NCBI GenBank assembly: GCA_024281055.1
Contig: JAMXLF010000035.1
Coordinates: forward strand, 62,001-126,000
DNA length: 64,000 nucleotides
Reading direction: 5' to 3'
Source of the DNA: Geobacteraceae bacterium
GTDB lineage: Bacteria; Desulfobacterota; Desulfuromonadia; Geobacterales; Geobacteraceae
A program made the translations under genes and the position numbers. The notes below the pieces were generated by a model. That model saw only the letters and a program-made list of their open reading frames with translations, did not search any database and was not told where the DNA came from. This document shows positions 11,209 through 64,000 of this stretch, piece after piece (position 1 is the first letter of the stretch; every line of letters starts with the position of its first letter).

Positions 11209-11342
11209 GGTAACTCCTTTCGTTGTTAGCCTGCTGCAGACCCCCCGTCGGTACTGCAGCATTCAATCGGTCGACGGTCCTAGACATTTCCTTCATTTCC
11301 TGAATATCTCCTCCTTTTCTAGTCCCGGCTTAAACGCCCTAT

Positions 11343-11460
11343 AAAAAAAGCCGGGGCCGGATATCGAGTGATATTTCGGCGACCCGGCTGTCTCGGTGAG
11401 ACCCTGTGGGCTTTCCGTCCCACCCTCGCGGATGGTTTAGTATTATCGTCTATCTACTGC
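11343..11460 (-). promoter_or_regulatory. GEMM-Ib riboswitch, gene-proximal copy, with terminator
   Basis: Read on the minus strand, the aptamer has the GEMM-I core: AATACTAAACC, a GCGA tetraloop-type hairpin (11438-11420), GTGGGACGGAAAGCC, the GGGTCTCACCGAGACAGCC arm and GCCGAAATATC. Compared with the c-di-GMP aptamer Vc2, the position equivalent to G20 is A and the G21-C46 pair is swapped to C-G, the changes found in Geobacter aptamers that bind 3',3'-cGAMP. The 3' end (11365-11343) has CCCGGCT followed by T7, which can pair with AGCCGGG inside the aptamer. Ligand binding should therefore disrupt the terminator (ON switch; inference). Confidence 0.88.
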
Positions 11461-11560: not shown

Positions 11561-11677
11561 AAAAAAACCGGGGCCGAATTGTCGGTGACATTTCGGCGAC
11601 CCGGCTGTCTCGGTGAGACCCTGTGGGCTTTCCGTCCCACCCTCGCGGATGGTTTAGTATTATCGTCTATCTACTGC
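11561..11677 (-). promoter_or_regulatory. GEMM-Ib riboswitch, promoter-proximal copy, with terminator
   Basis: The 88 bp at 11590-11677 are identical to 11373-11460 of the other copy; the spacing is 217 bp. The expression platform differs in sequence but keeps the logic: CGGCCCCGG plus T7 (11575-11561) can pair with CCGGG and GCCG of the aptamer. Two complete aptamer-terminator units in series mean RNA polymerase must pass two ligand-dependent terminators before reaching the cytochrome gene at 11208. Confidence 0.88.
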
Positions 11678-46861: not shown

Positions 46862-46881
46862 TGGTCCATATATGGTCCATA
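46862..46881 (+). repeat. Direct repeat tggtccata x2 upstream of the integrase
   Basis: tggtccata at 46862-46870 and 46873-46881, between the att fragment and the integrase start. Possible arm-type integrase or excisionase binding sites. Confidence 0.4.
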
Positions 46882-46892
46882 GTGAGGAGACG

Positions 46893-48152
46893 ATGCCGCT
46901 TCTGCGCCTGACCAGAACCTCTGTTGAGAAGCTAGCGTGTGCTGGCCGGCAGGAGGAATACTTCGATACTAAATTGACCGGTTTCGGCGTCCGGGTGAAC
47001 CGCAATTCCAAGAGCTACTTTGCCCAAGGGAAAATCTCCTATCCGGACGGAAGCCGGCGGAAGTTCAACGAGACGATCGGCCGGGTCGGCATCATGGCGT
47101 TCGACGATGCGTGGGATGCCGCCAAGGGGATTCTTGAGGATGCCGCCAAGGGGATCTCCCCCGCCGACCGGCGCCGGGAGGCACAGGTGGCGGCAGCCGA
47201 GGATGAGGCCCGGCGCATAACGCTCCGGCAGGTCTATTACCTCTACATCGCCACCCGAAAGAAAATGAAAGAGTCGACCAAGAAGGGGTATCTGGAATCG
47301 CTGGAGCGCAACGTCCCTGAATGGTTTGACCGGCCCATCCGGGAGGTCACCGGGAAGATGATCGTGCAAAAGCATGCCGAGCTGGGCGCCCGGGCGCCCG
47401 GCCAAGCCGACAGCCTGATGCGTATCATCCGGGCCTTGTTCAATTATGTGATCGACAGCGAGGAGGAAGATTCGGTACCGATCGTCTCCCGCAATCCGGT
47501 CAGGAAGCTTACCGTGTTGGATGCGTGGTATCGTCTCGGCCGGCGCACCACATACATCCATCCGGAGGATCTTCCGGCCTGGTTTGCCGCCGTGCTGGAA
47601 TTGGACGAATTTTCACGCAACTACATTCTGCTCGTGCTCTTCAGCGGCGCCCGCCGTACCGAGGCCGCGGCACTGAAGGTGGGAGACGCGGATTTTGTGC
47701 GTAACGTCTGTGTCTTTCGCGAGACGAAGACGGGAAAAGTCCTTGAGGTCCCGGTAGCCCGATACGTCATGGAGCGCATCAAAGCGATGCTCCCGGCCCG
47801 CGGTCCCACCCTTAAGGCCACCGATTTCGTTTTCCCTTCCCTCGGCAGAAGAAAAAGCAAGTCCGGGCACATCGAGGATTTGCGCGCACAGTACAAAAAG
47901 GTGATCGAGCGCAGTGGTGTTCAATTCACTCCGCATGACCTCCGCCGTTCCTTCGAGTCATACGCTGAAATTTTGCGGGTGCCGGTATTTACCAAGAAAC
48001 GGTTGTGCAACCATGCATTGCCCAAAGACGTGACTGAGGGGTACATCCAATTCCCTCTGGAGGATCTGCGCAATGTTGTCGAGGAGGTGGCAGATTATAT
48101 CCTGACGTCAGCGGGTCAGAACAAAAAGGCGGGGCGAGGCAAGAAACGATAA
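46893..48152 (+). CDS. int: Tyrosine-type phage integrase
   Basis: 419 aa from the ATG at 46893 (GAGGAG six bases upstream; an ATG at 46872 lies in a repeat). N-terminal arm-binding domain (FDTKLTGFGVRVNRNSKSYF), core-binding domain, and catalytic Arg in FSGARRTEAAAL (near 252), HxxR in TPHDLRRSFE (near 347), His in LCNHAL and Tyr in EGYIQF (near 384). It should catalyse recombination at the adjacent tRNA-Leu att site. Confidence 0.93.
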   Translation: MPLLRLTRTSVEKLACAGRQEEYFDTKLTGFGVRVNRNSKSYFAQGKISYPDGSRRKFNETIGRVGIMAFDDAWDAAKGILEDAAKGISPADRRREAQVAAAEDEARRITLRQVYYLYIATRKKMKESTKKGYLESLERNVPEWFDRPIREVTGKMIVQKHAELGARAPGQADSLMRIIRALFNYVIDSEEEDSVPIVSRNPVRKLTVLDAWYRLGRRTTYIHPEDLPAWFAAVLELDEFSRNYILLVLFSGARRTEAAALKVGDADFVRNVCVFRETKTGKVLEVPVARYVMERIKAMLPARGPTLKATDFVFPSLGRRKSKSGHIEDLRAQYKKVIERSGVQFTPHDLRRSFESYAEILRVPVFTKKRLCNHALPKDVTEGYIQFPLEDLRNVVEEVADYILTSAGQNKKAGRGKKR

Positions 48153-48499: not shown

Positions 48500-48744
48500 T
48501 TGTTTTTCCGGTAGCCGTTGATGATGATTTCCAGGCTCGTGCTGTAGCCCTCTTCCGCTTTGAGACTGGCGCCGTAGGCCCGGAGCAGTTCTCCGTAGGT
48601 TTCCCTGCCCGTGAGGCTCGCTATCGGCCAGGCCGGACGCGAGACGGCCGGAGGCTCGGGGCAGGCAACCGGCGTCGGGACGTTAACGACCTTTGGTGCG
48701 CAGCCGCACAAAAACAGTACCAGCACCACCGCGTATCGCTTCAT
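48496..48744 (-). CDS. Rz1-like outer-membrane spanin lipoprotein
   Basis: 82 aa: signal with lipobox LFLCGC, a Pro-rich early region (PKVVNVPTPVACPEPPAVSR) and a short helical tail. It overlaps the Rz-like gene stop by ATGA (48741-48744). Spanin pairs fuse inner and outer membranes at lysis. Confidence 0.75.
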   Translation of the reverse strand: MKRYAVVLVLFLCGCAPKVVNVPTPVACPEPPAVSRPAWPIASLTGRETYGELLRAYGASLKAEEGYSTSLEIIINGYRKNK

Positions 48745-49133
48745 TGGGCACCCCCCGCGAGTTTTCTGGCCATCTCGAAACCATATTGCCGGGCCTCTTC
48801 GCAGTCGGCCGGCGCCGGATGGCTCAGCATCTCCTGCACCTTCGCCTCGTAGGTGCGGGCAAGCCGGGCGGCCTCGTTCCGAGCGGCCTGCGCCTTTTCT
48901 TCCGCCACTTTCCCCGCCGCCTGCAGCTGGCGTATCCCCTCGTTCTGAAGTTCGACCTGGGCGGTGATGCCGTCAAGCTTCTTTTGCGCCGTGTGCAGCC
49001 GGCTCGTCTGCACCTTTACGCCGATCGTCAGTGTAAGGACAAAGAGCGTGAGCAGGGCCACCGCCGCAAGCAGGGCGTACTGCACCCACCGCCGGGCCAG
49101 CATCCAGTTCGTTACCGTGATGAGAATCTCCAT
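48741..49133 (-). CDS. Rz-like inner-membrane spanin
   Basis: 130 aa: one N-terminal membrane helix (about 19-38, YALLAAVALLTLFVLTLTIG) followed by a long periplasmic coiled coil (TAQKKLDGITAQVELQ ... RNEAARLARTYEAKV). Typical Rz layout between endolysin and Rz1. Confidence 0.78.
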   Translation of the reverse strand: MEILITVTNWMLARRWVQYALLAAVALLTLFVLTLTIGVKVQTSRLHTAQKKLDGITAQVELQNEGIRQLQAAGKVAEEKAQAARNEAARLARTYEAKVQEMLSHPAPADCEEARQYGFEMARKLAGGAQ

Positions 49134-49143
49134 CGTCTCTCTC

Positions 49144-49671
49144 CTATCTGGGCCGCACGAATCCTTCCAGGTGCAGCCCGCGGATATCGTTGTAGCGGGT
49201 CCGGTAGTAGACGCCGCCCCCTTCCCGCTGGTTTCCTTCCGCCCCGGGCACGGTGTTCCCCTCGATGGTCCGGAACGACTTCCTGTTGATCTGGCGCACT
49301 ACGAGCACCGCGTGACCGTCCCAATTCCTCTTCTGCGGGTTATGGCTGAAGATGCCGATATCGCCCGGCTGCGGTTTCTCGATCCCCCAGCGGACGTCCT
49401 CCGGGGTGAACGTCCGGTAACGCAGCTCCCGGGCCTGGACGTACTCCCAGAAGCTTGAGCACCGGGCGATCTTCGGGAAGGGAAGCGCGGCCGGCGCCAC
49501 GGCCACATGCCAGCACCAGAGACAGAAGGCGAGACACCAGGAAAGGTGGTGGGGCAGTCCGAGGTATTCCAGCATCCGGTCGATCATCGGGTGGTCGTTA
49601 TGGTTGGTGGCCTCCCGGATATACTTCAGGGAGTCGGCGACCTGGATGACCTTTTCAGCGATGGATGACAT
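49144..49671 (-). CDS. CHAP-domain endolysin
   Basis: 175 aa from the ATG at 49671. CHAP amidase/endopeptidase core: Cys in LSWCLAFCLWCWHVA (about 48), GDIGIF, His in WDGHAVLVVRQI (about 128) and EGNT. It cleaves peptidoglycan peptides during lysis. The start overlaps the holin-like gene. Confidence 0.8.
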   Translation of the reverse strand: MSSIAEKVIQVADSLKYIREATNHNDHPMIDRMLEYLGLPHHLSWCLAFCLWCWHVAVAPAALPFPKIARCSSFWEYVQARELRYRTFTPEDVRWGIEKPQPGDIGIFSHNPQKRNWDGHAVLVVRQINRKSFRTIEGNTVPGAEGNQREGGGVYYRTRYNDIRGLHLEGFVRPR

Positions 49672-49969
49672 TGGAAGCCCCGAGGATGATCGATGCCGCG
49701 ATGATCGCAAAGGCGACGGGATTGGCCTTGAGCCACGGGATCACCTTGAACCGGCGGCCGCCGAGAAAATAGATGACCGGTGCCCAGTAGAGGGTGTACA
49801 GGATCAGGCGCGGCAACGGCTGGCCGAACGTCTCGCCGATCGCGCCGCGGATCTCCGGCAAGACCCATGCGAGGGCAAACAGGAACAGTGCGGCCAGGAA
49901 GATGGTCAGCACTGCAAAGAAGTTCTCCCCCAATCCGTGGTTTTCATGGTTTGATTCCGACATCTGCAT
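49655..49969 (-). CDS. Holin-like small membrane protein
   Basis: 104 aa from the ATG at 49969, which follows GGGAGG; ATG 49984 is the alternative. Three hydrophobic segments (FFAVLTIFLAALFLFALAWV, LILYTLYWAPVIYFL, AFAIIAASIILGA). Place upstream of the endolysin suggests a holin; no sequence family recognised. Confidence 0.55.
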   Translation of the reverse strand: MQMSESNHENHGLGENFFAVLTIFLAALFLFALAWVLPEIRGAIGETFGQPLPRLILYTLYWAPVIYFLGGRRFKVIPWLKANPVAFAIIAASIILGASNVIHR

Positions 49970-51121: not shown

Positions 51122-51262
51122 CAAGCTGCTCTCACAGCGAGTCGTAGGCGGACCCCGCACCCGAAAGTTTTTGCGGTATTTTTGTATCTACAGTTTGCCG
51201 GGTGTAGGGGAAATACAACACCGCAAGGGAAATACCCTGCTGCGCCTACGAGCAGTGAGAGC
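51122..51262 (+). ncRNA. C4-like antisense RNA and its target sites
   Basis: Two upstream segments are complementary in order to two segments just before the antirepressor: 51128-51135 (gctctcac) with 51255-51262, and 51142-51150 (tcgtaggcg) with 51243-51251. Inner pairs 51171-51177/51220-51226 and 51158-51163/51199-51204 add structure. This a', b' / a, b layout upstream of an ant gene is how the C4 RNA of phages P1 and P7 blocks ant translation. The RNA boundaries are not visible. Confidence 0.7.
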
Positions 51263-51312
51263 GCCCGGCATCCTCAATGAGGGGCCATCTCAAAATCGTA
51301 GGAGGTAGTACC

Positions 51313-52347
51313 ATGAACGCCCCCCGCCAGCTGATCCCCATCGAGCAGTCCACCATTCACCAGGAACTCACCCAGACCGTCAACGCCCGCGACCTGCACG
51401 CCTCGCTTGGAGTCGGCAAGGACTTCTCGAACTGGATCAAAGTCCAGATCGACCGTGCTCGACTCGTGGAAAATCGCGACTATATCTCATTCGCCCAAAA
51501 GGGCGAGCGAGAAATTGGGGCTACACTCCGTAAGGATTACCACCTCACCATCGACGCCGCGAAACACATCGCCATGATGAGCGGCACCGATAAAGGGTTC
51601 GAAGTGCGCGACTACTTCATCGAAGTGGAGAAGCAGTCCCGCGCCCTCCCCATGGTCTCTCACACCAGCGTCGACAACCAGCTCGAATCGCACCGGGTGT
51701 TCGAGGCCTTCTACCACACCGCGCAGATGCTGGGCCAGAACAAGCGCCAGTCCGCACACGCCGCCAACACCGCCACCCGCAAGGTGACCAGCGTGGATAT
51801 CCTGGGGCTCATGGAGCTCGCCGAGGTGCCCGAGGCGCAACCCGAACGGGCGGCGCTCCCCATGGGACAGTCTCAGCCTTTGCGGCGATTCCAGCAACTG
51901 CTCGCGCGTGACATCGAGGAGGGGAAAATCACCCTGCGGGCGCTCGCCCGCAAGATCGGCATCGCGGCCTCGATGCTCCACGACTATACCACCATGGGAA
52001 CCATGCCCAACGCCAGGAACCTGGAAAAGCTCGGCCGCCACTACAACCTGACCGTCGACGAACTGCTCGCCCCGGCCGTTGAGGAAGATGCAGGCCCCCT
52101 GTCAGGGTACAAGACCGCCACCGAACTGGGGGAGTCCCTGGGCATGACCGGCCGGCAGTTCAACGAGGAGCTCGCCCGGCACGGCTACCTGCGCAAGGGG
52201 GCCTTCGGTTGGGAGCTTACCGCCAAGGGGAAAAAATTCGCGGTCACGGCGCGTCACGGAAAAAAGCCGGGGGCGGCCATGCCGAGCCAGCGGATCAAAT
52301 GGCTGGCGAGCGTGGCCGCGAAACTCGTGTCGAAACATACCCGCTGA
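51313..52347 (+). CDS. AntA-type phage antirepressor
   Basis: 344 aa from the ATG at 51313 (GGAGG). N-terminal AntA domain (about 1-110, NARDLHASLGVGKDFSNWIK, ENRDYISFAQKGE, KDYHLTIDAAKHIAMM). Middle helix-turn-helix (about 205-255, ITLRALARKIGIAASMLHDY). C-terminal ANT/KilAC-like region (TELGESLGMTGRQFNEELAR). Antirepressors inactivate the phage repressor to induce lytic growth. Expression is probably held off by the C4-like RNA upstream. Confidence 0.85.
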   Translation: MNAPRQLIPIEQSTIHQELTQTVNARDLHASLGVGKDFSNWIKVQIDRARLVENRDYISFAQKGEREIGATLRKDYHLTIDAAKHIAMMSGTDKGFEVRDYFIEVEKQSRALPMVSHTSVDNQLESHRVFEAFYHTAQMLGQNKRQSAHAANTATRKVTSVDILGLMELAEVPEAQPERAALPMGQSQPLRRFQQLLARDIEEGKITLRALARKIGIAASMLHDYTTMGTMPNARNLEKLGRHYNLTVDELLAPAVEEDAGPLSGYKTATELGESLGMTGRQFNEELARHGYLRKGAFGWELTAKGKKFAVTARHGKKPGAAMPSQRIKWLASVAAKLVSKHTR

Positions 52348-52674: not shown

Positions 52675-55600
52675 CTACCTTCCGTATTGGTACTGCCACT
52701 GGCTATCCTTCTCGTCCGCCACGCCCCGGTCCGGGTAATCGTCGATTCCCGTCACCAGGTCCCCCCACTGCGCCCCCTGGCGGAGGTTGTTAAACCGCAT
52801 CATGCCGCGCCAGTCGCCATACTTGCGGTAGCGGTCCTGGGCCGCCATCTTCTGGGCGTTGCCGTAGGCCTCTAGTTCCTTCATGATCTGGGTGTCTTCC
52901 CGCAGGTCCGACACCCGGGCCGGCTGCATACCGAAGGCCCGAAGCATCCCCTCTCCGGAGGTCATCCGCACCGGCTGTCCCCGGTAGAACACTTCCTTGC
53001 CGTGGGTCGTGGTCACCGGGCCGGAGGTCTGGCGGACCGCCGACACGACGTTGGCCGCCGCAGTGGGTGCGGCATACTCGGCAGCCCGGGACCAGTCCCC
53101 TTCCCATGCCGCCGCGCCCGCCTTTACTCCCTTCTGCGCCAACCCGCCGATCGGGCCGGTGACCGACTTGGTCACGTCGTCGCCGGCCAGCCAGTTGGAG
53201 AGGAGCGGGATGCGCAGTTGCACCGCCCCGGTCAGGGAGACGCCGAAGAGCGCCCCCGGCAGGCCGTGGTCGTGAACATCGGCCACGAACCCGAAGAGCG
53301 CCTCCGCCGGGCCGCCGTAGTTCCGGGCGTTTTTGCGGAGCCAGTTGCGGAAGGCCAGCTTGGGGGAATACCCGAACAGCTTGAGAATGAACTTGTCCAG
53401 CTCGTCCAGCCCCGGCGCCCCGGCCGCCGCCCCGCCCAGAAGGTACATGGCGAAGAAGAGGCGGACAAGCGCCTTCTGGTCGGCCCGGTTGCCGCTCGTC
53501 GTCCGGTAGTAAATGAGGTTCAGCATGTGGGTGATGTACGACTGCAGGGCATAGGCGCCGCGGCCGAGGGCGGAATGGGCGGCATACCCCGGCAGGTTGT
53601 GGCGACCCATGTCGATGTTCACGGCGTCGTTCACGGCCAGGGCCTTTTGCACCGCCTCGTCGCGGGCCATCCCCTGCGCCCGGAAGACGCGGTAGGACGC
53701 CAGGATCACCGTCTTGCGGTTCAGCTGCTCCACCTTCTGGCCGGGCGCCATGGTCACCCGCACCGCTCCGTGAAGGGCGCGAGACGCCTTGCCTCCCACT
53801 CCGGCATCCGAGCCGGTCATCTCCGCCAAGGCCGTCTCCTTGAACTGCACCTGCACCCGGGGGTCGGCGAACAGGTTCCGCTCGTCATCCGAGAGTTTGT
53901 CCCGCAGCACGTCGAATTCGGCCGCGGCGATCCGGCGCAAGGCTCCCTTCTGGCCGTCGGTCTTCAGGAACGCTCCGCCGGCGATATGTTTCGAGAGTTC
54001 CGCCACTCCCACCACGTACGGTTGGGTGCTGTTGATCAGCATCCACGAGACGTTCCCCCCCAGGTACCAGAGCGACACCGCGGCCCGGGCATCGCCCGAC
54101 AGCCGATCCCACCGCCCGAGGTTGCGCAGGGTATAGCGAACGTAGCGGCTCGCCCAGCGCCGGTGCTCGGCCGGCACCGCCTGGAGGTGCTCGAACTGGC
54201 GCCGGGCATAGCGCGCCTTGGAGAGCATGCCGGCCACCCCGTGCACGTACGACTCGAACTTGCCCAGCGCGTCGGTCCGGTCGTAACCCTCGATCAGGTA
54301 GTCGGCCCGGCGGATATTGTACATACCGGCGCCGCGGGCCATGAGGATCTCCGCTACGTTGGTCTGGTAATCCTTCCGGAGCTCTTCGGCTGCCTTCTCG
54401 CCGATTTCCCCGCGGTTGGTGGCCCGTTTCAACGCCTGGTCGATCATCCGGTCCAGGGCGAAGGAATTGGCGGTGATGTCCTGGTACTCGTCCTCTTGCA
54501 GGCTGTCGCTCTGCTTGTGATTCACCTCGTACGTATGCCCTTCGAGGTAGCCCACCGGCATAAAGGTTGCCGGGTCGCGCCGCACCTGCTGCGCCAGTTT
54601 TTTCGCCTTGCTCTCTTTCGGCACATACCGGCTGTAGACCATCACCCGGTAGTTACTGCCGTCCGGCCGGGTCAGGGGGATGGCCGCCAGGCGCTCGCGG
54701 GCCTGTTCTTCCTCTTCCTTGCGGAACTGCAGGATGATGTGGCCGCTCCCCTCCTGCTGGCGGAATGATCCCCCCAGGTCGTCGGCCACCTGCTCGATCT
54801 CTTTCGCCAGGGTCAGGCCGGGGTAATAGTTCAGGTAGAACTGGGCCGCGGGCTTGCCGTCCCGGGCGGTCACGTCGCGGGTCGTGAAGTCGAGGCGGTC
54901 GATCACGTGGTGGGCGGTGACCACCATCTCACCCTCGCCATGGTTGCGGTGGATGTAGCCCCGCCGCTTCTGGGCCGTCACGTACTTGAGGTCCGCCCGT
55001 GCCGCCTCCTCGTCCCGGGCCTTGAAGTCGATGGCAACGCCTTCGTCGGTCTGCGTCACCCTGGTGTCGAACTTCTTCGCCACCCGTTTCAACTGGTGGA
55101 GGACGTTCACTCCCGGGTCGTAGCCCAGCGATACCCGGAACACTTCCTTCTTCCCTTCCGTCACCTTCTCGAAGCGGTAGTCCAGCTCTCCCTTGTACCG
55201 GGAGCGCTTGCCGGCGATGGTGTCGGCGATCTTCTGCGGGTCGATGCCGTTTTCCCGCATCAGTTCCTCTTCCAGTTTCAGGCCCTCTTCGAAGGCTGTG
55301 TCCGCCGCCTCGATCAGTTTGCGGTAGAAGGCAAAGGTCCGTTCCGTCAGGCCGGCGGCCTTTACCTTCGGATTGAGAAGGGCCTTCTCGAAACTGCCGT
55401 ACTCCACGTTGCGGGCGTCTCCCTCGAACACCAGCACGTCGAAGGCCGCCTTCTCCTCCCTGGAGAGGGGGTCGTACATCCGCTGTTTCGTCTCTTCCCA
55501 GACGGTCTTCATATCTGACCAGTCGAAGAAGTTGCGGAACTTCTCCCGCAGGTTGTCCATGCCGCCCCCGTCGGCTTCCGGACCCTTCTCCGCCAGACCT

Positions 55601-58600
55601 CCTTTCATCCGGACCGCGTCCGTGAACCGGTCTTCTTCCCGCCGCTTCCCCTCCTCGTAGAACGGCTTGACTGCCTCGTGCTGCTCCTGGCGGGAGAAGG
55701 GTTCCTGAAGGAGCCAGGCGATATTGTCCTTCGTGGCTGGTTCGGTGTGCTCTTCGACGAACTTTCGCAGGCGGGAGAAATCGAAGGGATTGAGAAAGCG
55801 GCCCATGGACTTCAGGACTGCCATCGGTTCCAGCCCGGCGGCGACCTCGGCGGCCTGTTCTTCCCGCAGGGCATATTTCGCCGTGATCGAGACGTCCTTG
55901 TCCGAAAAGATCACATAATTGTAATCTCCCTCGCCCGCGCTGCGGCTCGCGCCATTCAGGTATTTTATGCCCCGGACACCGAGGGAGTGGAGATAGTCGG
56001 AGGCGGCGCGATCGCCATCATCCGACAAACCGCGATAGAATTCACCGCCGGACATCGAAAGCGGGTCACTGACAGGATTCTTGTAATACTCCCGCAGGGC
56101 GTCAAACTCGTTTTTCAGAGCAGCCTTCACCGTTTCGCTCTGCTCGGCAAGCGGCTTGTCCCACAGGAGATATTCATCCTCTTTCGGTGCAAGTTCGACC
56201 TGATAGAGGCGGCCGCGGTGTTTGCCCTGCTCCACGGCACGGATTTCCCGTTGCATCTTGTTTTTGAACTCCACGCTTTGCGCCCCATCGGCACGGTGCT
56301 GGAGCTCGTTAATAACCGCAACCGTTTTCCGGTCTTCAGACCATTCGGCTGGCAAACTTTGATAGATGCGGGCCGCAGTCTCGCCAACTTCCAGGCCTCG
56401 GCCGGGCCCCAGTGTGTCCCGGTAATGCTCGGCCACTTCCTTCTTGCCGGCAAAATAAAGCCCATGACCGTACGACTGCGCCCCTTCTCCTGTACCGATC
56501 TTGTCTTGACTGAACTTGTCAAAATCATGAGGCGAGCCGTGCCACGCGGCAGCGTACCGGGCCGGCTGGTAACTCGCCGCCCGTAGGATCTCCTCGTCGG
56601 AAATCCCCTTTTCCCGCAACCGGTCAAGAATGACCTCTGCCAGAGAGCGGTCACCGGAGCGCTCGAAGGCATCGGCCGCCTGTCGTCCCTTGAGCTTTCC
56701 GCCCCACAGGTCGGCAAACACGTCGTCGGCAGTCCGGAACCCCATTTCCCGCAGGGCGTTGCCGACCCGCTTCAGCCAGTTGAGAATCCTGTCCCATATC
56801 CGGCGGATGCCGGGGACGGGTCGGGTCTGCCCCATGCCGTAGCGGCCGAAGGCGTCGGCAGTCCGCTCCTCGCTGTCCCTGCCGTCCCGGGCCGGAAAGG
56901 CCCTTTCCAGAAGTGCGGCGTCACGCTTGTCGATCAACCCGAGCATCTTCGCCGCGTGGAATACCTCGTGGTATCCCGTGGCCTCAGTGGCGTGCTCCAG
57001 GGCAAGGGTGACGATCGCCCGCGTCTGCCGGGCGGTCATCTGTGTCATGCCGGCGATGGTGCCGGACGTCACCCCATGAGCCGCAAAGGCCGCCGGGTCG
57101 TGGTGTACGATACGCTCTTGTGTGCGCAGCTCCGTGGCCCCTTCCGGCAGGGCGGCGAGGATGGCGGTCTGGATGCGGTCGATGGCGACATGGTCGAGGC
57201 CTTCGGAAGCTGCGCCCGCCGCAAACCGCGTTCCATCCTCACGCACGCCGCTCTTGACTTCCTCGGCGCGGTGATATAATATTTTATTAGGGGTCAATGA
57301 CCCGCTGGTCCTGGGGCGAATTGCACGCCTCACCTGCTCCAGCAGCCATTGGCCCTTTGTCTTGTCTATTGCCTCCAGCAGTCCCTTGATCGTCCAGTTG
57401 ACGTATTCCCTTTCGTTCCGTTCGTAAACGCTCGCAATCCTGTTGACTTCGATGTTTCCCGTCTTGACTTCCAGATGCAGTGCCGCCATGACCGGTTTGC
57501 CTTCATGCCGCATCTGAAGCAGCAGCGTCTTGGCGTTGGCCTGTGTATCTGATGCGAACACCGCCACCGGATTGTTGATGTGTCGCGGCAAGTTGTAGAG
57601 AAGTCCCACAGGCAGTTCGTGCCGGGCCGACTCCCCTTGTCCGGTCACCTTATGAACCGTCGCCAGGTTCATCTTGATCGGGAGGCTCGGCACCCCGACG
57701 CTCCGCAATATTTCGCCCGGTTCTCCCAGGTCAAAGATATGGCGATGGGGCAGGCCGACGGTTTTCATGCGATCGAGATCATCGTTGTACCGGCTGTTCG
57801 CGTCCCGCAGGGCAAACAGCGCCGTCCCCTTCTCCCTGGTCTGCAGGGTACCGACAAACTCGTCGAATGCTTTGCCGATCGCCTCTCGCTCCTTCCCCTC
57901 CGGATACGGCCGGGCCACAAAGCCGTCGATCATCGGCACGAGGATGCCGCCGTGGGCATGGTAGACGAGGAAATCGCTCTGGCCGCCGGCTTCCGCCACC
58001 TTGTCCTCGACATAGGCGGCAAACGCCCGGGCCGCCATCTCGTGAGGCTCGCTCCAGTAGTCGCCGCTGCGTGCCTGGTCCATCTTTTTCGCTTCCATAG
58101 CGAAGGAGGTCGGCACCTGTTTGGTCTTCTCCGCCCCGCTCTCCGCATCTCGCAGCATCTTCAGTCGGGCGGCGTAGAGGTTCATATCGGTCCGGAGCTT
58201 GTCGAGGGTGCCGCCCCGCTCGGCGTTGAACCCGGAGCGGTTCCGCACGTTTTTCAGGATGGCCGAGAGCCCCTCCAGGGTGTCGTTGGTGCTGCGGCCG
58301 GCGAAGGCCGCGCGACTCCGGGCCGGGGCGTTCGGGTTGTCTGCCCGCCATTGCGTCTCCAGGCCGCCCCCCTCGACGAGGATCGCGGCCAGCCGGTCGA
58401 ACTCCGCCAGCTGCTCGGCCGAAGCCGGGGCGAGCCCGCGCTTGTTCTTGCGCCACGTGACCTCATGTGTCAGGTCGCGGGCAAGGTTCTTCCGCAGGCT
58501 ATCGAGGGTGGATTTCAGGTTGTCCCGGGCCGCGCCCACGAACTTCTCCGTCTTTTCGGTGTCCTCGACATACTGCTCCGCCTTCTTGTACATCGCCTGA

Positions 58601-61600
58601 ATAAGGGCCTTGTACGCCTCCCGCAGTTCCGGCCGCAGCTGCGACTTGTAGCTCGCGCCATGGCTCAGGTAATCGTCGGGACCGCGGGTCTGATAGACCT
58701 GATCACCACGTTTGTTCGCCACCTTCTCGTTCGGCGCCTTGGAGTCGAGGCGGCCGAGGTAGTGGTCGAGGGCATGGAACCACTCATGGGCAAGCGAGCC
58801 GGCACCCTTCATCTTGGTAAGGTTAATGACCCCGTAATCTCGTTCATAATGAGCCTTGGCCCCGGAAAGCCCCTGACCTCTCGCCCCGAAGGCGATGGCC
58901 AACTCGCCGTTCAGCATCAGGGCCTTAGGCGGGACGTTCAACACCTCCGCCAGGTCGAGCAGCCCATCATAGGCATGGTTCATCACCTGTTGCCGCTCTT
59001 CCTGGTTGTTCCAGTTGCCGAACTCGATCCCCCTTGGCGCGAACGTATCCATGAACATCTGCGCCGTGGCGGGTTCGGTTCGCCTTTCGGCTCCCGTGCG
59101 CACGGCGATCTCCGGCACCGGCAGGATCTCCTCACCGAAGGAGGTTTTCGCCTCCAGAAGATTCACGGCGTTCTCCGCCATATAACGCAGGGCGTCCTCA
59201 CGCGCCGGGAAACTCCGTTCCACCACCTTGAGGCGCTTGCGTTCGCCGACGCGCTTGTAGATCGACCAGGTATTGTCGGGGTTCAGCACCGCCTGGTGCG
59301 TCATCGCCACGGCGTAGACCGGGATGGCCGCTTTTGCCTCCTCCTCCGAAGCAAAGGTTTGGCCGGTGCCGGAAAAGGAAAGCCGTCCACCCTTGGTGAT
59401 GATCCCGAACCGGCCTGGCGACTTGATGCTGTGCGCCACGATGAAGCGCTTCTGCCACGCCGGGGCACCGTCATCCTTCTTGGATTTCGGTCCGGTACCG
59501 GTACCACGGGACGCGGTATCCTTGCGCGCCCCGCCGATCTTCTCGCCGAAATCTTCGATCTTCCCGGCGGGAGAGGAGGCCGTTTCCGGCCCCTCTGCGG
59601 TGGCGGGTTCGCTTGCGGGAGTGGTGGCGGGTGTATGTTCATCGGCCGCAGGGCCGTTGCTTTCTCCGTCTGAAGACGCAGAAAGGGGAGAGTCCTGTAC
59701 GGACCTCTCCCCTTCCGATGATTCGGTTTTTCTCTTGCTCGGTTCTACTTCTGCGGTGTGCCCAGCCGAATGTCCACTATCGGGCCGTGCTTCGCCGTGA
59801 ATTCCTGCAACGACGCTATAAGGTCGGCCTCCCCTTTCAGGGTTACGGGTTCCAGCCGCAACCTGCTCGGCTCGGCTGGCGTTGAGCCGCTGGTCGGCGG
59901 AGTTGAAGTCCTGGTCGATTCCATAGTCGAGCCTCCATCCGGTGTATGGGATTATTGTACCATCCTCACCGTCGATTTCAATGGTTTGTTTCGCCACCGC
60001 CTCGGCCAGGCGCTCCAGGGCCTTCTCGGCCGTGGCCGGGTCGTCAAAGATCGTGGCGAACTCGTCGCCTCCCTTGCGGAATATCTTGATTCCGAGCGGT
60101 TCCGCGGCATCGGCGATAAGACGCAGCAGCTTGTCGCCATAAACATGGCCAAACGTGTCATTGATCCACTTAAGTCCCGATATGTCCATGCTCGCCACGG
60201 CATTGCCGGTCGGCATCATTTTCTCAGCCAGTTGCCATCCCCGGGCGTTATACGTATTGGTCAGTTCGTCATGAAAGGCAAGGCGCAACACCCCGTCGAT
60301 ATCTTTCTTGCGGACCAGATCATCAACCTGGCGTCGCATCTCCTCATCGACTCGGCGAACGTGGGACTGGCTTACCTCACTGGAAGCACCGGCGGCCACA
60401 CCACCGGCTGGTACGGCTCCGTCATCTTGTGTCCGCACGTCGGACACTTCTTCTTGTCCTTTGCCACCTTCTTGCTGCATTTCGGGCACTTCATCGGTAA
60501 CCCCCTGTGAATGGTGAATGGTGAATGGTGAATCGGCAAACGCCTTTTTTTGGTTACCATTAGATAACCATTCCTTGAGTCCTTCGGGCGTGGTTTCGGT
60601 GAGGGCGCCTATCCGGTCGGGGCCGCTCTCGTCGTAATTGGCGAGATACCCCAGCCGGGCATCCACCGGCGTGTCCCATCCGATAAGGATTTTATGTTCA
60701 TCGAAGCGGCCCGTCTTAATGTTCTTCTGGTCCACCACGTATACGCGCCGGCTCTCCGGATCAGGACCGACAAAGACGTCGAGATGATCCTTGTCATTCC
60801 CTCGTGGCGCTTTTCCTTGACTCGTCTCGACAATATAACCATAATGGTTTCGCAGTTCGGTTTCCCACGGTCTGCCGTTTTCGTTCGTACCACGCCGTAC
60901 ACTGCCTTGCGGGTTCTCAATCCGTATGTGCAGACCGTTCAGCCAGAAATCGCCTTTCTTGTAATTTCCAGCATGTTTCTGGGCCTCAGTGGGTTCCGGC
61001 AGATCATTTCTTGGGGAGGTTGCTGCGTCATGAGCGGCGCTGTCGATGTGGTGTGCCAATTCTGTGGAAAGAGTTTCCGACGATACCGGTCCCAAATTAA
61101 GGCCAAGATCTTTCGTTCCAACGCCTGTCGTGTCGCCGCTACTCGCCCCGACATCACCTGCTTTGTTTGCGGCGCTCCCATTAGCCGCCCGAGCCACCTC
61201 AAGCGAACTGACAGGTGTTTCTGCGATCAAGTCTGCTATAGTCGCTATCGAACGGCCCAATCTCTCACGCGTCGCAGGATCAGTAAGAGCGGATACGTTT
61301 ACATCTGGCGAGACGGCAAGGAGGTTCTTGAGCACCGCTGGGTTGTCTCTCAGCATCTCGGCAGAGACCTTTTGCCCGGTGAGCATATTCACCATATCAA
61401 TCACGTCCGGACCGACAACCGAATCGAGAATCTTCGGATCATTGGCCCGAGCGAGCATTGCGGCAAGCACCATCCTTTGACTTGGGATGCCAAGCGCGCC
61501 GAAGCCCTTGCTGCGGAGGGTCTCAACGTCAAGGAGATCGCCGAGGCGCTTAACGTCCCTCCCCCCACCCTCTACGACTATTTTCGAAGGCATAACATAG

Positions 61601-64000
61601 AGATTCCCGGCAAGTGGCGCGGTGCCGTTGCTCGACGTTGATGTGACTTTCTGCGCCTGTTCGTGAATAGAGCCCAGCGCCAGGGCCGGGTCATCCGGAG
61701 CGAGCCCCTTGCTGGCGGCATGTTTCTCCCACGACTTCACGAAATCCGCCCGCTCCCCGTCGCTCCAGCCGGTGGTGTCGAGGCCTGCGAGTTTGGAATA
61801 TGTGGCAACGGTCTCTGAACTGGGACCGATGGGACCTGTAGGACTGATCGGACCGAGCACCTCGGGCGTGGGCGGCGGGAAGTCGTAAGACAGTGACCGG
61901 CGAAAAGTGCCGCGGGTGGCGTCTTCCATGGCAGCGTGCAGGTCGTTGACGGTGGCGCCAGGGGGAAGGTAGCCGTTTTCGACCAGGACCTCCCGTATGT
62001 CATCGAGCGTCCGCCCTCCCTGCTTGAACACGTGCATGAACCCTTGGCCCTGACGCATGACATGCTTGTTCAGGTCGCGGCGGGCATCGGTGATGGCGTT
62101 TCCCCACTCGGATCTGGCCGCCTCGGTGTCAATTCCACCCAGCTTGGCGATGGCAACGGCGATGTCATCCTTAGATGGGTCAACCGTGCGGTTTTGCGGC
62201 TTCTTTGTCCCTGTCGATGTCACAGGTTTTGTCGGCGTTGGAGTCTCTTCCGCGGGTGCAGGAGCAGAGTCGGCCGCGATGGGAGCGGCGGGAATGGTTT
62301 TACCTCCCCATCCCGTTGCCGGCTGAACGACCGGCACGTCCGCAGTGGCCTGGCTCCGCCGGTAGGCAGTCAACACCCGTTGGTCGTAAGCGTTCGGGGA
62401 TTCGCCCACCACTCGTTGCATCCCCTGCTGGCGTTTCGCCCAAGCCCGGGCCTCGTCAAGCACCAGTTCATTCGAGTTCTGAGTTCTGAGTTCTGACCCA
62501 GACTGCGGGCCTGAAGAGTTCTGAGTTGATACTGCCGGCCCGGCCATACCGCCACCGTTCAAGCGCTCCTGTGCCGCCTGGATCTCTGTTGGCGTCATGC
62601 CCGGCACTGTCTCCAGAGGCGAATAATCGGCCGGCGCCATGGCCTGTCCCTCGGGGGTGACACGCATGGTAGAGACCGGCACGGGCAGGTTGGACATCCC
62701 CACCGCCCTGGTGAGTGGGCCGGACGGCGCGGGAAGGTCGGTGGCTTCTCCGGCCGCCTCGGGGTTTTGCGCCGGCTGCTCAAACGCGATTGCCTCTTTC
62801 GCCGCTACCTTCTGCAAGGCGAAGTTCGCCCACTCCTCGGCATGGGCCTTGTCCACCGGGGCAAGCTGGTCATACACGAAACTGGCCGCCTCCAGTCTGG
62901 TCTTCGGGTCTTGAGCCGGGTCACTCAGCAGGTCTATCATCCGGTTGCGGGTCACCGCCTGGGAAATGTTGGCGTGCACTCCAAGCGGGGCCATCAAGGC
63001 GGTCATGCCGAGGGTCGGCAGCACGGCATCTTTGGCCGCCTGCCACGGCGTGATGGTGCGGCCCGCCTCGTCCCTGGTCTCGAAGCCATAGCGTCCCTCG
63101 ACGTACGCCTCGCCGCCCCCCTGCCCCATCTCCGTCAGGGTCTCGGAGGCGGCGGTCTTGCCCAGGTCCTTAAGTCCTTCCTTTACCACCCGCCCCACGG
63201 TCTGGCGGGTGGCCAGCTCCTTCAGCACCTCCCCGGCGGTCTTCCCCGCCACCTTGCCACCGAAGCCGAGCGTCTTCACCGCCCATTTGGCCGGGCCGAG
63301 CAGGTTCCCGACTGCCTCGCCGCCGAACTCGATGGCGCCGGTCAGGTAGCTGGCTTTACGGGCGTCGGCCATGATCTGAGCCTTGTCGTCGTCGGTCAGA
63401 ACCGTGCCGGACGCCTCCAATTCCCTTATCTTCTCCTCCCCCTTGTCAAGGGTCTCCTGCGACTGGGACAGCCCGGCCGGCACTGCACCGAGAATACCGC
63501 CGATGGTCGCCGCCGCCCCGGTGGAGAGACCGAGCAGGCCGAGTCCGGTGGTAGCGGCCGCCGCAGGGAGGACCGACATCGGGATCATCTCTGCCCCTTT
63601 GGCCAGGGCGTAGGTCACCGGCCGGCCGCTCTCAGCGGTGACGGTCGGGGCGATGTTAGGCTGCTGGGCGATCTTTTCCGCATTCTCCGCCTGCCACCGG
63701 GTCTCCTCGTCTAACGCCGAGCCGGCCGGGATGAGACGGCGCGCCGCATTGTAGGCCATGCCGGAGGCGACCGGCAGGCCGCGCACCAGGCCGGTAGCGA
63801 TCTCGGCGACTGCCCCGCGCTCTTGTCCCTTCTCCGGGGCAGGAATGGCCTTGACGATCTCGGTAAAACTGTCGTCGTTCCTGACCCAGGGATGGTCCGG
63901 CAACTTGAAGGCGATCCGTTCCGCCGGCGTCTGCTCCGCCATGGTCTTGTGGGAACGGAGCATGCCGGGTTTCGCCAGGTCGGGCCGCAAGATATTTGCG
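52675..64000 (-). CDS. Giant polyvalent phage protein (>3,770 aa, 5' end off window)
   Basis: One open frame crosses the right edge; ATG 63942 or TTG 63990 are possible starts but neither has a good ribosome-binding site. From N to C: Ala/Gly-rich hydrophobic region (63.8-62.8 kb); linker; inorganic-pyrophosphatase-like domain (60.98-60.55 kb, NYKKGDFWLNGLHIRIENP, DKDHLDVFVGP); GGDEF domain (60.33-59.82 kb); zincin AHEWFHALDHYLG (about 58.77 kb); Barnase/EndoU/RelE-like nuclease region (57.70-57.27 kb, LYNLPRHINNPVAVF); second HExxH GYHEVFHAAKML (about 56.96 kb); ADP-ribosyltransferase-like AWHGSPHDFDKF ... GHGLYFA (56.56-55.88 kb); helical large-polyvalent-associated C-terminus. Such proteins are often packaged and injected to counter host defences (inference). 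Confidence 0.85.
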   Translation of the reverse strand, partial: ANILRPDLAKPGMLRSHKTMAEQTPAERIAFKLPDHPWVRNDDSFTEIVKAIPAPEKGQERGAVAEIATGLVRGLPVASGMAYNAARRLIPAGSALDEETRWQAENAEKIAQQPNIAPTVTAESGRPVTYALAKGAEMIPMSVLPAAAATTGLGLLGLSTGAAATIGGILGAVPAGLSQSQETLDKGEEKIRELEASGTVLTDDDKAQIMADARKASYLTGAIEFGGEAVGNLLGPAKWAVKTLGFGGKVAGKTAGEVLKELATRQTVGRVVKEGLKDLGKTAASETLTEMGQGGGEAYVEGRYGFETRDEAGRTITPWQAAKDAVLPTLGMTALMAPLGVHANISQAVTRNRMIDLLSDPAQDPKTRLEAASFVYDQLAPVDKAHAEEWANFALQKVAAKEAIAFEQPAQNPEAAGEATDLPAPSGPLTRAVGMSNLPVPVSTMRVTPEGQAMAPADYSPLETVPGMTPTEIQAAQERLNGGGMAGPAVSTQNSSGPQSGSELRTQNSNELVLDEARAWAKRQQGMQRVVGESPNAYDQRVLTAYRRSQATADVPVVQPATGWGGKTIPAAPIAADSAPAPAEETPTPTKPVTSTGTKKPQNRTVDPSKDDIAVAIAKLGGIDTEAARSEWGNAITDARRDLNKHVMRQGQGFMHVFKQGGRTLDDIREVLVENGYLPPGATVNDLHAAMEDATRGTFRRSLSYDFPPPTPEVLGPISPTGPIGPSSETVATYSKLAGLDTTGWSDGERADFVKSWEKHAASKGLAPDDPALALGSIHEQAQKVTSTSSNGTAPLAGNLYVMPSKIVVEGGGRDVKRLGDLLDVETLRSKGFGALGIPSQRMVLAAMLARANDPKILDSVVGPDVIDMVNMLTGQKVSAEMLRDNPAVLKNLLAVSPDVNVSALTDPATRERLGRSIATIADLIAETPVSSLEVARAANGSAANKAGDVGASSGDTTGVGTKDLGLNLGPVSSETLSTELAHHIDSAAHDAATSPRNDLPEPTEAQKHAGNYKKGDFWLNGLHIRIENPQGSVRRGTNENGRPWETELRNHYGYIVETSQGKAPRGNDKDHLDVFVGPDPESRRVYVVDQKNIKTGRFDEHKILIGWDTPVDARLGYLANYDESGPDRIGALTETTPEGLKEWLSNGNQKKAFADSPFTIHHSQGVTDEVPEMQQEGGKGQEEVSDVRTQDDGAVPAGGVAAGASSEVSQSHVRRVDEEMRRQVDDLVRKKDIDGVLRLAFHDELTNTYNARGWQLAEKMMPTGNAVASMDISGLKWINDTFGHVYGDKLLRLIADAAEPLGIKIFRKGGDEFATIFDDPATAEKALERLAEAVAKQTIEIDGEDGTIIPYTGWRLDYGIDQDFNSADQRLNASRAEQVAAGTRNPERGGRPYSVVAGIHGEARPDSGHSAGHTAEVEPSKRKTESSEGERSVQDSPLSASSDGESNGPAADEHTPATTPASEPATAEGPETASSPAGKIEDFGEKIGGARKDTASRGTGTGPKSKKDDGAPAWQKRFIVAHSIKSPGRFGIITKGGRLSFSGTGQTFASEEEAKAAIPVYAVAMTHQAVLNPDNTWSIYKRVGERKRLKVVERSFPAREDALRYMAENAVNLLEAKTSFGEEILPVPEIAVRTGAERRTEPATAQMFMDTFAPRGIEFGNWNNQEERQQVMNHAYDGLLDLAEVLNVPPKALMLNGELAIAFGARGQGLSGAKAHYERDYGVINLTKMKGAGSLAHEWFHALDHYLGRLDSKAPNEKVANKRGDQVYQTRGPDDYLSHGASYKSQLRPELREAYKALIQAMYKKAEQYVEDTEKTEKFVGAARDNLKSTLDSLRKNLARDLTHEVTWRKNKRGLAPASAEQLAEFDRLAAILVEGGGLETQWRADNPNAPARSRAAFAGRSTNDTLEGLSAILKNVRNRSGFNAERGGTLDKLRTDMNLYAARLKMLRDAESGAEKTKQVPTSFAMEAKKMDQARSGDYWSEPHEMAARAFAAYVEDKVAEAGGQSDFLVYHAHGGILVPMIDGFVARPYPEGKEREAIGKAFDEFVGTLQTREKGTALFALRDANSRYNDDLDRMKTVGLPHRHIFDLGEPGEILRSVGVPSLPIKMNLATVHKVTGQGESARHELPVGLLYNLPRHINNPVAVFASDTQANAKTLLLQMRHEGKPVMAALHLEVKTGNIEVNRIASVYERNEREYVNWTIKGLLEAIDKTKGQWLLEQVRRAIRPRTSGSLTPNKILYHRAEEVKSGVREDGTRFAAGAASEGLDHVAIDRIQTAILAALPEGATELRTQERIVHHDPAAFAAHGVTSGTIAGMTQMTARQTRAIVTLALEHATEATGYHEVFHAAKMLGLIDKRDAALLERAFPARDGRDSEERTADAFGRYGMGQTRPVPGIRRIWDRILNWLKRVGNALREMGFRTADDVFADLWGGKLKGRQAADAFERSGDRSLAEVILDRLREKGISDEEILRAASYQPARYAAAWHGSPHDFDKFSQDKIGTGEGAQSYGHGLYFAGKKEVAEHYRDTLGPGRGLEVGETAARIYQSLPAEWSEDRKTVAVINELQHRADGAQSVEFKNKMQREIRAVEQGKHRGRLYQVELAPKEDEYLLWDKPLAEQSETVKAALKNEFDALREYYKNPVSDPLSMSGGEFYRGLSDDGDRAASDYLHSLGVRGIKYLNGASRSAGEGDYNYVIFSDKDVSITAKYALREEQAAEVAAGLEPMAVLKSMGRFLNPFDFSRLRKFVEEHTEPATKDNIAWLLQEPFSRQEQHEAVKPFYEEGKRREEDRFTDAVRMKGGLAEKGPEADGGGMDNLREKFRNFFDWSDMKTVWEETKQRMYDPLSREEKAAFDVLVFEGDARNVEYGSFEKALLNPKVKAAGLTERTFAFYRKLIEAADTAFEEGLKLEEELMRENGIDPQKIADTIAGKRSRYKGELDYRFEKVTEGKKEVFRVSLGYDPGVNVLHQLKRVAKKFDTRVTQTDEGVAIDFKARDEEAARADLKYVTAQKRRGYIHRNHGEGEMVVTAHHVIDRLDFTTRDVTARDGKPAAQFYLNYYPGLTLAKEIEQVADDLGGSFRQQEGSGHIILQFRKEEEEQARERLAAIPLTRPDGSNYRVMVYSRYVPKESKAKKLAQQVRRDPATFMPVGYLEGHTYEVNHKQSDSLQEDEYQDITANSFALDRMIDQALKRATNRGEIGEKAAEELRKDYQTNVAEILMARGAGMYNIRRADYLIEGYDRTDALGKFESYVHGVAGMLSKARYARRQFEHLQAVPAEHRRWASRYVRYTLRNLGRWDRLSGDARAAVSLWYLGGNVSWMLINSTQPYVVGVAELSKHIAGGAFLKTDGQKGALRRIAAAEFDVLRDKLSDDERNLFADPRVQVQFKETALAEMTGSDAGVGGKASRALHGAVRVTMAPGQKVEQLNRKTVILASYRVFRAQGMARDEAVQKALAVNDAVNIDMGRHNLPGYAAHSALGRGAYALQSYITHMLNLIYYRTTSGNRADQKALVRLFFAMYLLGGAAAGAPGLDELDKFILKLFGYSPKLAFRNWLRKNARNYGGPAEALFGFVADVHDHGLPGALFGVSLTGAVQLRIPLLSNWLAGDDVTKSVTGPIGGLAQKGVKAGAAAWEGDWSRAAEYAAPTAAANVVSAVRQTSGPVTTTHGKEVFYRGQPVRMTSGEGMLRAFGMQPARVSDLREDTQIMKELEAYGNAQKMAAQDRYRKYGDWRGMMRFNNLRQGAQWGDLVTGIDDYPDRGVADEKDSQWQYQYGR
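60507..60534. repeat. Heptamer tandem repeat (gtgaatg x4)
   Basis: Four 7-bp units, the last ending in c, inside the giant gene; on the minus strand they encode SPFTIHHSQ. Such runs are usually intergenic in this group. Confidence 0.8.
61030..61641 (+). CDS. HNH endonuclease with zinc fingers, antisense inside the giant gene
   Basis: 203 aa. ATG at 61030 with GGGGAGG at 61013-61019. Cys pairs C9/C12, C44/C47 and C63/C65/C69 form zinc fingers. HNH core: E101-H102 (LEHRWVVSQHLGR), H121-H122-N124 (EHIHHINHVRTDNRIENL), N130, N134, H143. C-terminal helix-turn-helix (GLNVKEIAEALNVPPPTLYD). This is a typical phage freestanding homing-type HNH protein. Its codons are in exact register with the giant gene's codons on the other strand, and it uses no TTA, CTA or TCA, so the opposite frame stays open. 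Confidence 0.88.
   Translation: MSGAVDVVCQFCGKSFRRYRSQIKAKIFRSNACRVAATRPDITCFVCGAPISRPSHLKRTDRCFCDQVCYSRYRTAQSLTRRRISKSGYVYIWRDGKEVLEHRWVVSQHLGRDLLPGEHIHHINHVRTDNRIENLRIIGPSEHCGKHHPLTWDAKRAEALAAEGLNVKEIAEALNVPPPTLYDYFRRHNIEIPGKWRGAVARR
62476..62496. repeat. Heptamer tandem repeat (gttctga x3)
   Basis: Three perfect 7-bp units (21 bp, in frame), with a related unit at 62518-62524, in the linker of the giant gene. Confidence 0.8.

Follow-up and report, generated by a model that had tools for sequence, protein, structure and literature searches.

A giant prophage polyvalent protein of a Geobacteraceae bacterium carries a phage-type GGDEF domain and is a candidate virion-delivered diguanylate cyclase

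A prophage in the genome of a Geobacteraceae bacterium encodes, together with its late structural genes, a giant polyvalent protein whose GGDEF domain is genuine as judged from a structural model, its motif and its metal and guanine residues, and looks by sequence comparison like a member of a virus-only GGDEF lineage. c-di-GMP chemistry is plausible for this domain, and the protein is, on circumstantial grounds, likely to be packaged and ejected with the phage DNA. The whole chain, in which the giant protein is ejected, its GGDEF domain is active and the product is c-di-GMP, is considered by us an even call. The gene lies at the end of the window, that is, the whole stretch of 64,000 nucleotides analysed (contig JAMXLF010000035.1, positions 62,001 to 126,000). 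Pfam was run on the 3,774-aa frame inside the window, to which the residue numbers of the domains refer, and the features of the gene are as follows.

52675..64000, minus strand: frame of the giant polyvalent protein, open for 3,774 codons within the window and continuing past its edge
60565..60987, minus strand: InPase, an inorganic pyrophosphatase domain of polyvalent type (Pfam PF18823, 146.6 bits against a cut-off of 26.8; residues 1005-1145)
59794..60312, minus strand: phage-type GGDEF domain (residues 1230-1402; Pfam, AlphaFold model, PDB matches and tree)
60058..60072, minus strand: GGDEF motif (residues 1310-1314)
58120..59082, minus strand: zincin-like metallopeptidase block containing HEWFH (matches to a PHROG and to NCBIfam CLCA_X)
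57835..58083, minus strand: LPD1 (Pfam PF18796, 74.3 bits, above cut-off)
57349..57636, minus strand: MuF_C (Pfam PF18819, 75.9 bits, above cut-off)
56956..56970, minus strand: second HExxH, HEVFH, residue 2344 (motif in the sequence)
56224..56544, minus strand: ART-PolyVal-like segment, HGSP...GLYF (Pfam PF18760, 26.6 bits where the cut-off is 31.2)
52849..54294, minus strand: C-terminal phage tail-700/PLxRFG-like region (sub-threshold match to NCBIfam NF032893, 78.2 bits where 100 are required)

Read on the contig, the gene starts with an ATG at window-equivalent position 64110, 110 bases outside the window, with AAAGGAGCAACC (AAAGGAG) directly 5' of it, so that the open frame spans 11.4 kb and the full protein has 3,811 aa. 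Third-position GC stays between 0.56 and 0.89 throughout the frame, with its minimum in the InPase/GGDEF part (residues ~901-1500). ARAGORN calls a tRNA-Ala antisense within the gene (52995-53073, plus strand), which is probably false because the Rfam tRNA model gives no call there.

Polyvalent proteins are recognised by several unrelated enzymatic domains, by LPD or MuF_C domains and by an origin in a phage or conjugative element. Here, InPase and GGDEF score above their cut-offs and a zincin-like HExxH block accompanies them, both LPD1 and MuF_C are present, and late, lysis and Mu-type genes of a prophage surround the gene. The acidic columns of InPase are kept in an alignment with 10 viral relatives, and a PDB relative is 9b41, the gp19 portal. 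Of 22 related segments, 21 retain the first HExxH (HEWFH, residue 1738, 58774-58788, minus strand), and the block containing it is covered by CLCA_X at 137.2 bits, under the cut-off of 260; no curated domain matches at the second. Nine segments related to the ART-like one keep GLYF in eight cases and HGS in seven. One viral locus (L072) has the same C-terminus as the tail-700/PLxRFG-like region of the giant protein. An earlier reading of the DNA, made from the sequence only, had proposed a giant phage polyvalent protein in a single frame of over 3,770 codons, with two HExxH motifs and a pyrophosphatase-like DKDHLDVF, all of which agree with the frame and domains given above. It had also described an ART-like HGS...GLYF segment, of which the motifs are indeed in the frame but the Pfam domain remains below cut-off, and a nuclease-like region, which was not confirmed, since Pfam, PHROGs and NCBIfam name no nuclease domain in the giant protein.

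The Pfam match of the GGDEF domain (residues 1241-1346) reaches 36.2 bits with a cut-off of 23.8 (E 6.6e-9); its alignment ends at profile position 118 of 161, the C-terminal part of the domain being phage-type. An AlphaFold model of the domain, built from 44 aligned viral domains, has a mean pLDDT of 93, and its top Foldseek/VIA-align matches are GGDEF-domain proteins. The comparison with 3ign gives Z 16.6 and rmsd 1.7 over 137 aligned residues, and those with PleD (1w25) and the Geobacter GacA domain (6d9m) give Z 15.4 and Z 15.0, respectively. At E <= 0.001 the profile of the 44-sequence alignment retrieved 48 PDB sequences, almost all of which are named diguanylate cyclases or GGDEF proteins, with some named only as uncharacterized. 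The window domain keeps the metal Asp, the guanine-binding Asn and Asp, the Arg before GGDEF and GGDEF itself. Thus, the complete GGDEF signature and the guanine-selecting Asp of GHVYGD, both pointed out in the sequence-only reading, are borne out by motifs in the frame and by a Pfam match above cut-off; the position at which Hypr GGDEFs have Ser or Thr is occupied by Asp in the window copy. The same reading had seen no RxxD inhibitory site, and none is present upstream of GGDEF in the window domain. Two positions are atypical and, like the shortened Pfam alignment, count against the main reading: Arg stands at the Lys442 position, against Lys in 49 of 51 polyvalent relatives, and Ser replaces the second Asp of DxD, against Asp in 41 of 52 polyvalent domains. 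In PleD, Lys442 and Arg446 bind phosphate; these numbers were transferred by motif, and the column assigned to Arg446 is uncertain.

An IMG/VR scan with the GGDEF profile led to 80 sampled viral loci, and a scan with the single sequence to one. Absence from homologues had been named by the sequence-only reading as grounds for rejection, and the outcome was favourable: the domain lies within ORFs of at least 900 aa in 60 of the 80 loci, some of these ORFs ending at the edge of the stored DNA. The comparison, from which duplicate domain rows had been dropped, took in 52 large and 19 short viral ORFs, a sample that leans to the query family because both profile scans (GGDEF and InPase) begin from query-family sequence patterns. 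In the polyvalent GGDEF domains the metal Asp and the guanine Asn are invariant (52/52 each), the central Asp of GGDEF is present in every domain with a letter at that column (51/51), and the guanine-selecting Asp is found in 45 of 52. Since mean column identity in the 44-sequence alignment is only 32%, the active site is selectively kept. Ser takes the place of the first G of the motif in 34/51, and His that of the Arg before it in 32/51; most relatives carry HxSGDEF rather than RxGGDEF, a point against the main reading. Not one of the 51 polyvalent domains in which the motif could be read has RxxD. Among host domains it occurs in 20 of 23, among cellular ones in 8 of 20 and among short viral ones in 4 of 18; these counts leave out one large and one short viral row without readable motif.

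A quick IQ-TREE tree was built from 118 rows, its cellular part consisting of 20 of 80 cellular loci and its host part of 23 of the 25 other host GGDEF matches (two were unreadable). The window domain falls in an all-viral group of 61 rows, together with 51 of the 52 polyvalent domains and nine short viral ones, and this group includes none of the 23 host or 20 cellular rows; its branch has an SH-aLRT of 85, so support is moderate. Recent capture of a host cyclase was rejected, as none of the 23 host domains falls in the viral group. A C-terminal motif, GxRxxRGxxP, is common to the polyvalent GGDEFs and the stand-alone GGDEF proteins of Yuavirus and Vojvodinavirus. The nearest relative of the window domain, an IMG/VR polyvalent protein with 62% identity, is without the InPase, LPD1 and ART matches of the window protein. 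Pfam finds GGDEF in all 21 full-length members analysed, LPD22 in four, InPase in three and ART-PolyVal, RadC and LPD38 in two each, from which it follows that the partner domains vary widely. On three viral contigs (L056, L077 and L095) polyvalent GGDEFs have Thr at the guanine-selecting Asp and, by analogy with the published Ser/Thr rule, could be phage cGAMP synthases. An apparent GGDEF-antirestriction fusion in Yuavirus BL8 was discarded as an annotation overlap, the long annotated ORF being in a different frame from GGDEF.

The surroundings of the giant gene are those of a prophage. Upstream of it, on the same strand, the late genes run from the terminase pair (small and large) through an SU10-like portal, the major head protein, an adaptor of SU10 type and an internal virion protein (phrog_511, E 2.5e-139) to a tail fibre; then come the giant gene and lysis. 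A transposase, a repressor and MuB-like, Gam-like and GemA proteins are found further along the prophage.

49144..49710, minus strand: CHAP endolysin, downstream of the giant gene
48741..49133, minus strand: Rz-like spanin, weak match (phrog_739, E 7e-4)
51277..52347, plus strand: AntA-type antirepressor adjoining the giant gene (Pfam PF08346; PHROG anti-repressor)
L217:4085-9836, minus strand: Mu-type genes (transposase, MuB-like, Gam-like, GemA)

With Mu-type genes and SU10-like head genes in one prophage, this is a transposable phage whose head module resembles that of short-tailed phages. A tyrosine integrase gene (46872-48152, plus strand) is situated by the lysis end of this prophage with a Mu-type transposase, and may belong to another element. 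Two radical-SAM-like genes of the prophage (L217:907-3002, minus strand) lie between the terminase and Gam-like genes, and a match to sRNA-Xcc1 (51196-51278, plus strand; 53.7 bits against the Rfam threshold of 53) is placed directly upstream of the antirepressor gene. Within the late, lysis and early stretches of the prophage that were searched, Rfam reports no c-di-GMP riboswitch. When 57 relatives of the host were searched with the InPase and GGDEF segment, none of the matches listed lay in a giant frame, and the element is therefore not stably carried by the host group, a further point against the main reading.

Delivery was approached through gene neighbourhood. Up to three upstream ORFs were taken from each of 46 viral GGDEF loci, giving 134 ORFs, for which PHROGs matches with E <= 1e-5 were counted. 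The DNA ejection protein phrog_4287 leads with 8 of the 134, and a second DNA-ejection family, phrog_598, accounts for two; virion structural proteins (four), internal virion protein families (four, two and one) and tail proteins also occur, most of the 134 ORFs falling outside named families. It is from these ejection and internal-virion neighbours, and from the similar gene order in the window, that the case for packaging and ejection is drawn, delivery into the invaded cell being a further hallmark of polyvalent proteins. Directly upstream of the giant gene there is a 642-aa gene (L027:12121-14049, minus strand) that matches nothing in Pfam, PHROGs or NCBIfam; judged by its position, its product could be an ejection partner.

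The host genome has 26 GGDEF matches, the window domain included, and 40 GEMM-I riboswitches above cut-off. ACT[AC]AACC, in which A occupies the position that selects the ligand, occurs in 24 of these riboswitches; reading by eye gives A there in five more. The selecting position was assigned by alignment to the Rfam consensus and to Vc2 numbering. On this basis, the host riboswitches are predicted to be mostly of cGAMP type. One tandem pair lies in the window:

11375-11451 and 11592-11668, minus strand: tandem GEMM-I riboswitches, A at the ligand-selecting position

The pair stands upstream of a host gene for an 835-aa surface protein with Glucodextran_B and Ig-like domains (8755-11262). In two of the 23 host GGDEF domains (L010 and L016) the selecting Asp is replaced by Ser and RxxD is present, and they are thus predicted to be Hypr cGAMP synthases inhibitable by c-di-GMP. 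According to the available part of the work on Geobacter (PMC6456294), A at nucleotide 20 of GEMM-I selects cGAMP and an A-to-G change leads to c-di-GMP selectivity. The same part presents data that support inhibition of Geobacter sulfurreducens GacA by c-di-GMP through the I-site, and reports that Asp at the selecting position of engineered GacA turns it into a diguanylate cyclase (PMC6456294). Taken together, the riboswitches and the two Ser-bearing domains point to a Geobacter-like host.

We infer from all this a sequence of packaging, ejection, processing, catalysis, product and host effect. The prophage polyvalent protein, encoded with the late structural genes, would be packaged in the virion and enter the cell along with the ejected DNA, where its GGDEF module might be freed by the zincin-like domain of the protein itself. 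The freed module would act as a diguanylate cyclase whose output of c-di-GMP escapes the feedback control of the cell, since the site for product inhibition is absent. In a riboswitch-rich host, the outputs driven by c-di-GMP would then go up, and cGAMP could fall, because c-di-GMP at the RxxD site inhibits synthases such as the two predicted in this genome. Two considerations speak against a virion-delivered cyclase: the giant protein would also be produced late in the cell that makes the phage, a stage at which its activity may hardly matter, and enzymes of the GGDEF type work as dimers.

Other explanations share much of this evidence. With the same protein and the same delivery, the GGDEF domain might make another nucleotide, such as cGAMP or some other cyclic or linear dinucleotide, directed against a nucleotide-based host defence. 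Such a product would fit a virus-specific lineage whose own motif, GxRxxRGxxP, is in a high-confidence part of the model, the HxSGDEF variants of that lineage and the Thr-bearing polyvalent relatives on L056, L077 and L095; moreover, related palm enzymes make defence nucleotides, as in Panoptes (PMC12657218). However, the guanine-site Asn and Asp and a canonical GGDEF are kept in the window copy, the engineered GacA with Asp at the selecting position became a diguanylate cyclase in the available text of PMC6456294, and no defence link was found, so that we think this explanation rather unlikely. That the domain is dead, or a GTP-binding structural module that helps the giant protein to fold, dimerise or be packaged, seems to us unlikely. 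It would account for the Arg at the Lys442 position in the window and for the degenerate GGDEF signatures common across the lineage; the invariance of the metal Asp, the central GGDEF Asp and the guanine Asn in the polyvalent domains compared, and the existence of stand-alone 156-aa versions in Yuavirus and Vojvodinavirus, argue for a working enzyme instead.

It could also be thought that InPase and GGDEF form a functional pair, the pyrophosphatase pulling the cyclase reaction by removal of PPi, taking into account that both domains are neighbours in the giant protein (residues 1005-1145 and 1241-1346) and that InPase occurs, on either side, in 12 of 60 GGDEF polyvalent proteins. When viral contigs were searched with the window InPase alone no relative was obtained, and a profile of 11 sequences gave at least 80, of which the best 80 were kept. 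GGDEF is present in only four of these best 80 InPase loci, two of them already in the GGDEF set, and InPase is mostly N-terminal with or without GGDEF. This gives no sign of a special link; the coupling is weak as a candidate and, in our estimation, very unlikely. Finally, the prophage might be defective and the giant gene a functionless relic, in keeping with a single copy seen in a draft assembly; the gene has an open frame of 11.4 kb and a ribosome-binding site, its surroundings hold late, lysis and regulatory genes besides those for Mu-type replication, and we regard this as highly improbable. The virion-delivered, feedback-insensitive diguanylate cyclase is the explanation that we retain.

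A broader reading joins the lineage to the host background: an old family of virus-only, RxxD-less cyclases of tailed phages would be ejected by short-tailed phages and seize cyclic-dinucleotide signalling within the first minutes after infection. This is a tentative and rather doubtful proposal. If it held, the cGAMP synthases of Geobacter-like hosts would be turned off via their I-sites and a riboswitch regulon of dozens of genes would be flipped, and the Thr-bearing members of the family would make cGAMP itself. Ejected phage proteins act ahead of any phage gene expression, and if one of them were a cyclase free of feedback, the phage would have a direct means of reprogramming the cell by the cell's own second messenger. 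The idea can be tested at once because c-di-GMP is easy to measure, the riboswitch-rich host background provides a ready transcriptional read-out, and the virus-only lineage offers a whole family for testing rather than a lone oddity.

With regard to known systems, GGDEF in polyvalent proteins was described by Iyer et al. in 2017, with a named prophage example and a proposal of interference with host nucleotide responses, as stated in the accessible part of that paper (PMC5512222). The sequence-only interpretation, whose delivery and c-di-GMP production stay predictions, is upheld as to the giant phage polyvalent protein, the intact guanine-type GGDEF and the missing RxxD, but not as to the nuclease region or to novelty: it had considered a diguanylate cyclase in a polyvalent protein unusual, the fusion was already known, and the novelty is smaller than that reading held. 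The new elements here are the lineage confined to viruses, the consistent absence of RxxD from it, the ejection-gene neighbours and the riboswitch-rich host. A search of open-licence papers, in which absence is weak evidence, turned up Iyer et al. for GGDEF in polyvalent proteins and did not find the lineage, the RxxD loss, the ejection neighbours or the riboswitch-rich host stated, and the accessible sections of Iyer et al. are without the virus-only lineage, the I-site loss and the ejection-gene neighbours (PMC5512222). Their example from Acetonema longum, WP_004096050.1, as given in those sections, resembles the window protein in being a giant prophage protein with GGDEF, a zincin-type peptidase and an ART-like domain, and differs from it in having SWI2/SNF2 and adenine methyltransferase domains as well. 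By tree and motifs, the stand-alone GGDEFs AN14_48 and that of Bordetella phage FP1 belong to the same viral group as the window domain, although the Yuavirus and Vojvodinavirus forms are single-domain proteins of 156 aa in contrast to the giant protein of the window. For the stand-alone cyclase of Bordetella phage LK3, hyper-biofilm lysogens have been reported and the mechanism is left open in the available portion of the source (PMC8471281). PleD and WspR share with the window domain the fold, the metal and guanine residues and the GGDEF motif, whereas the window domain is without RxxD, has Arg at the Lys442 position and a phage-type C-terminus, and has no recognised sensor domain. The Geobacter Hypr GGDEF GacA is likewise similar in its GGDEF fold and in a GGDEF motif with the central Asp, and differs in having Ser where the window domain has Asp.
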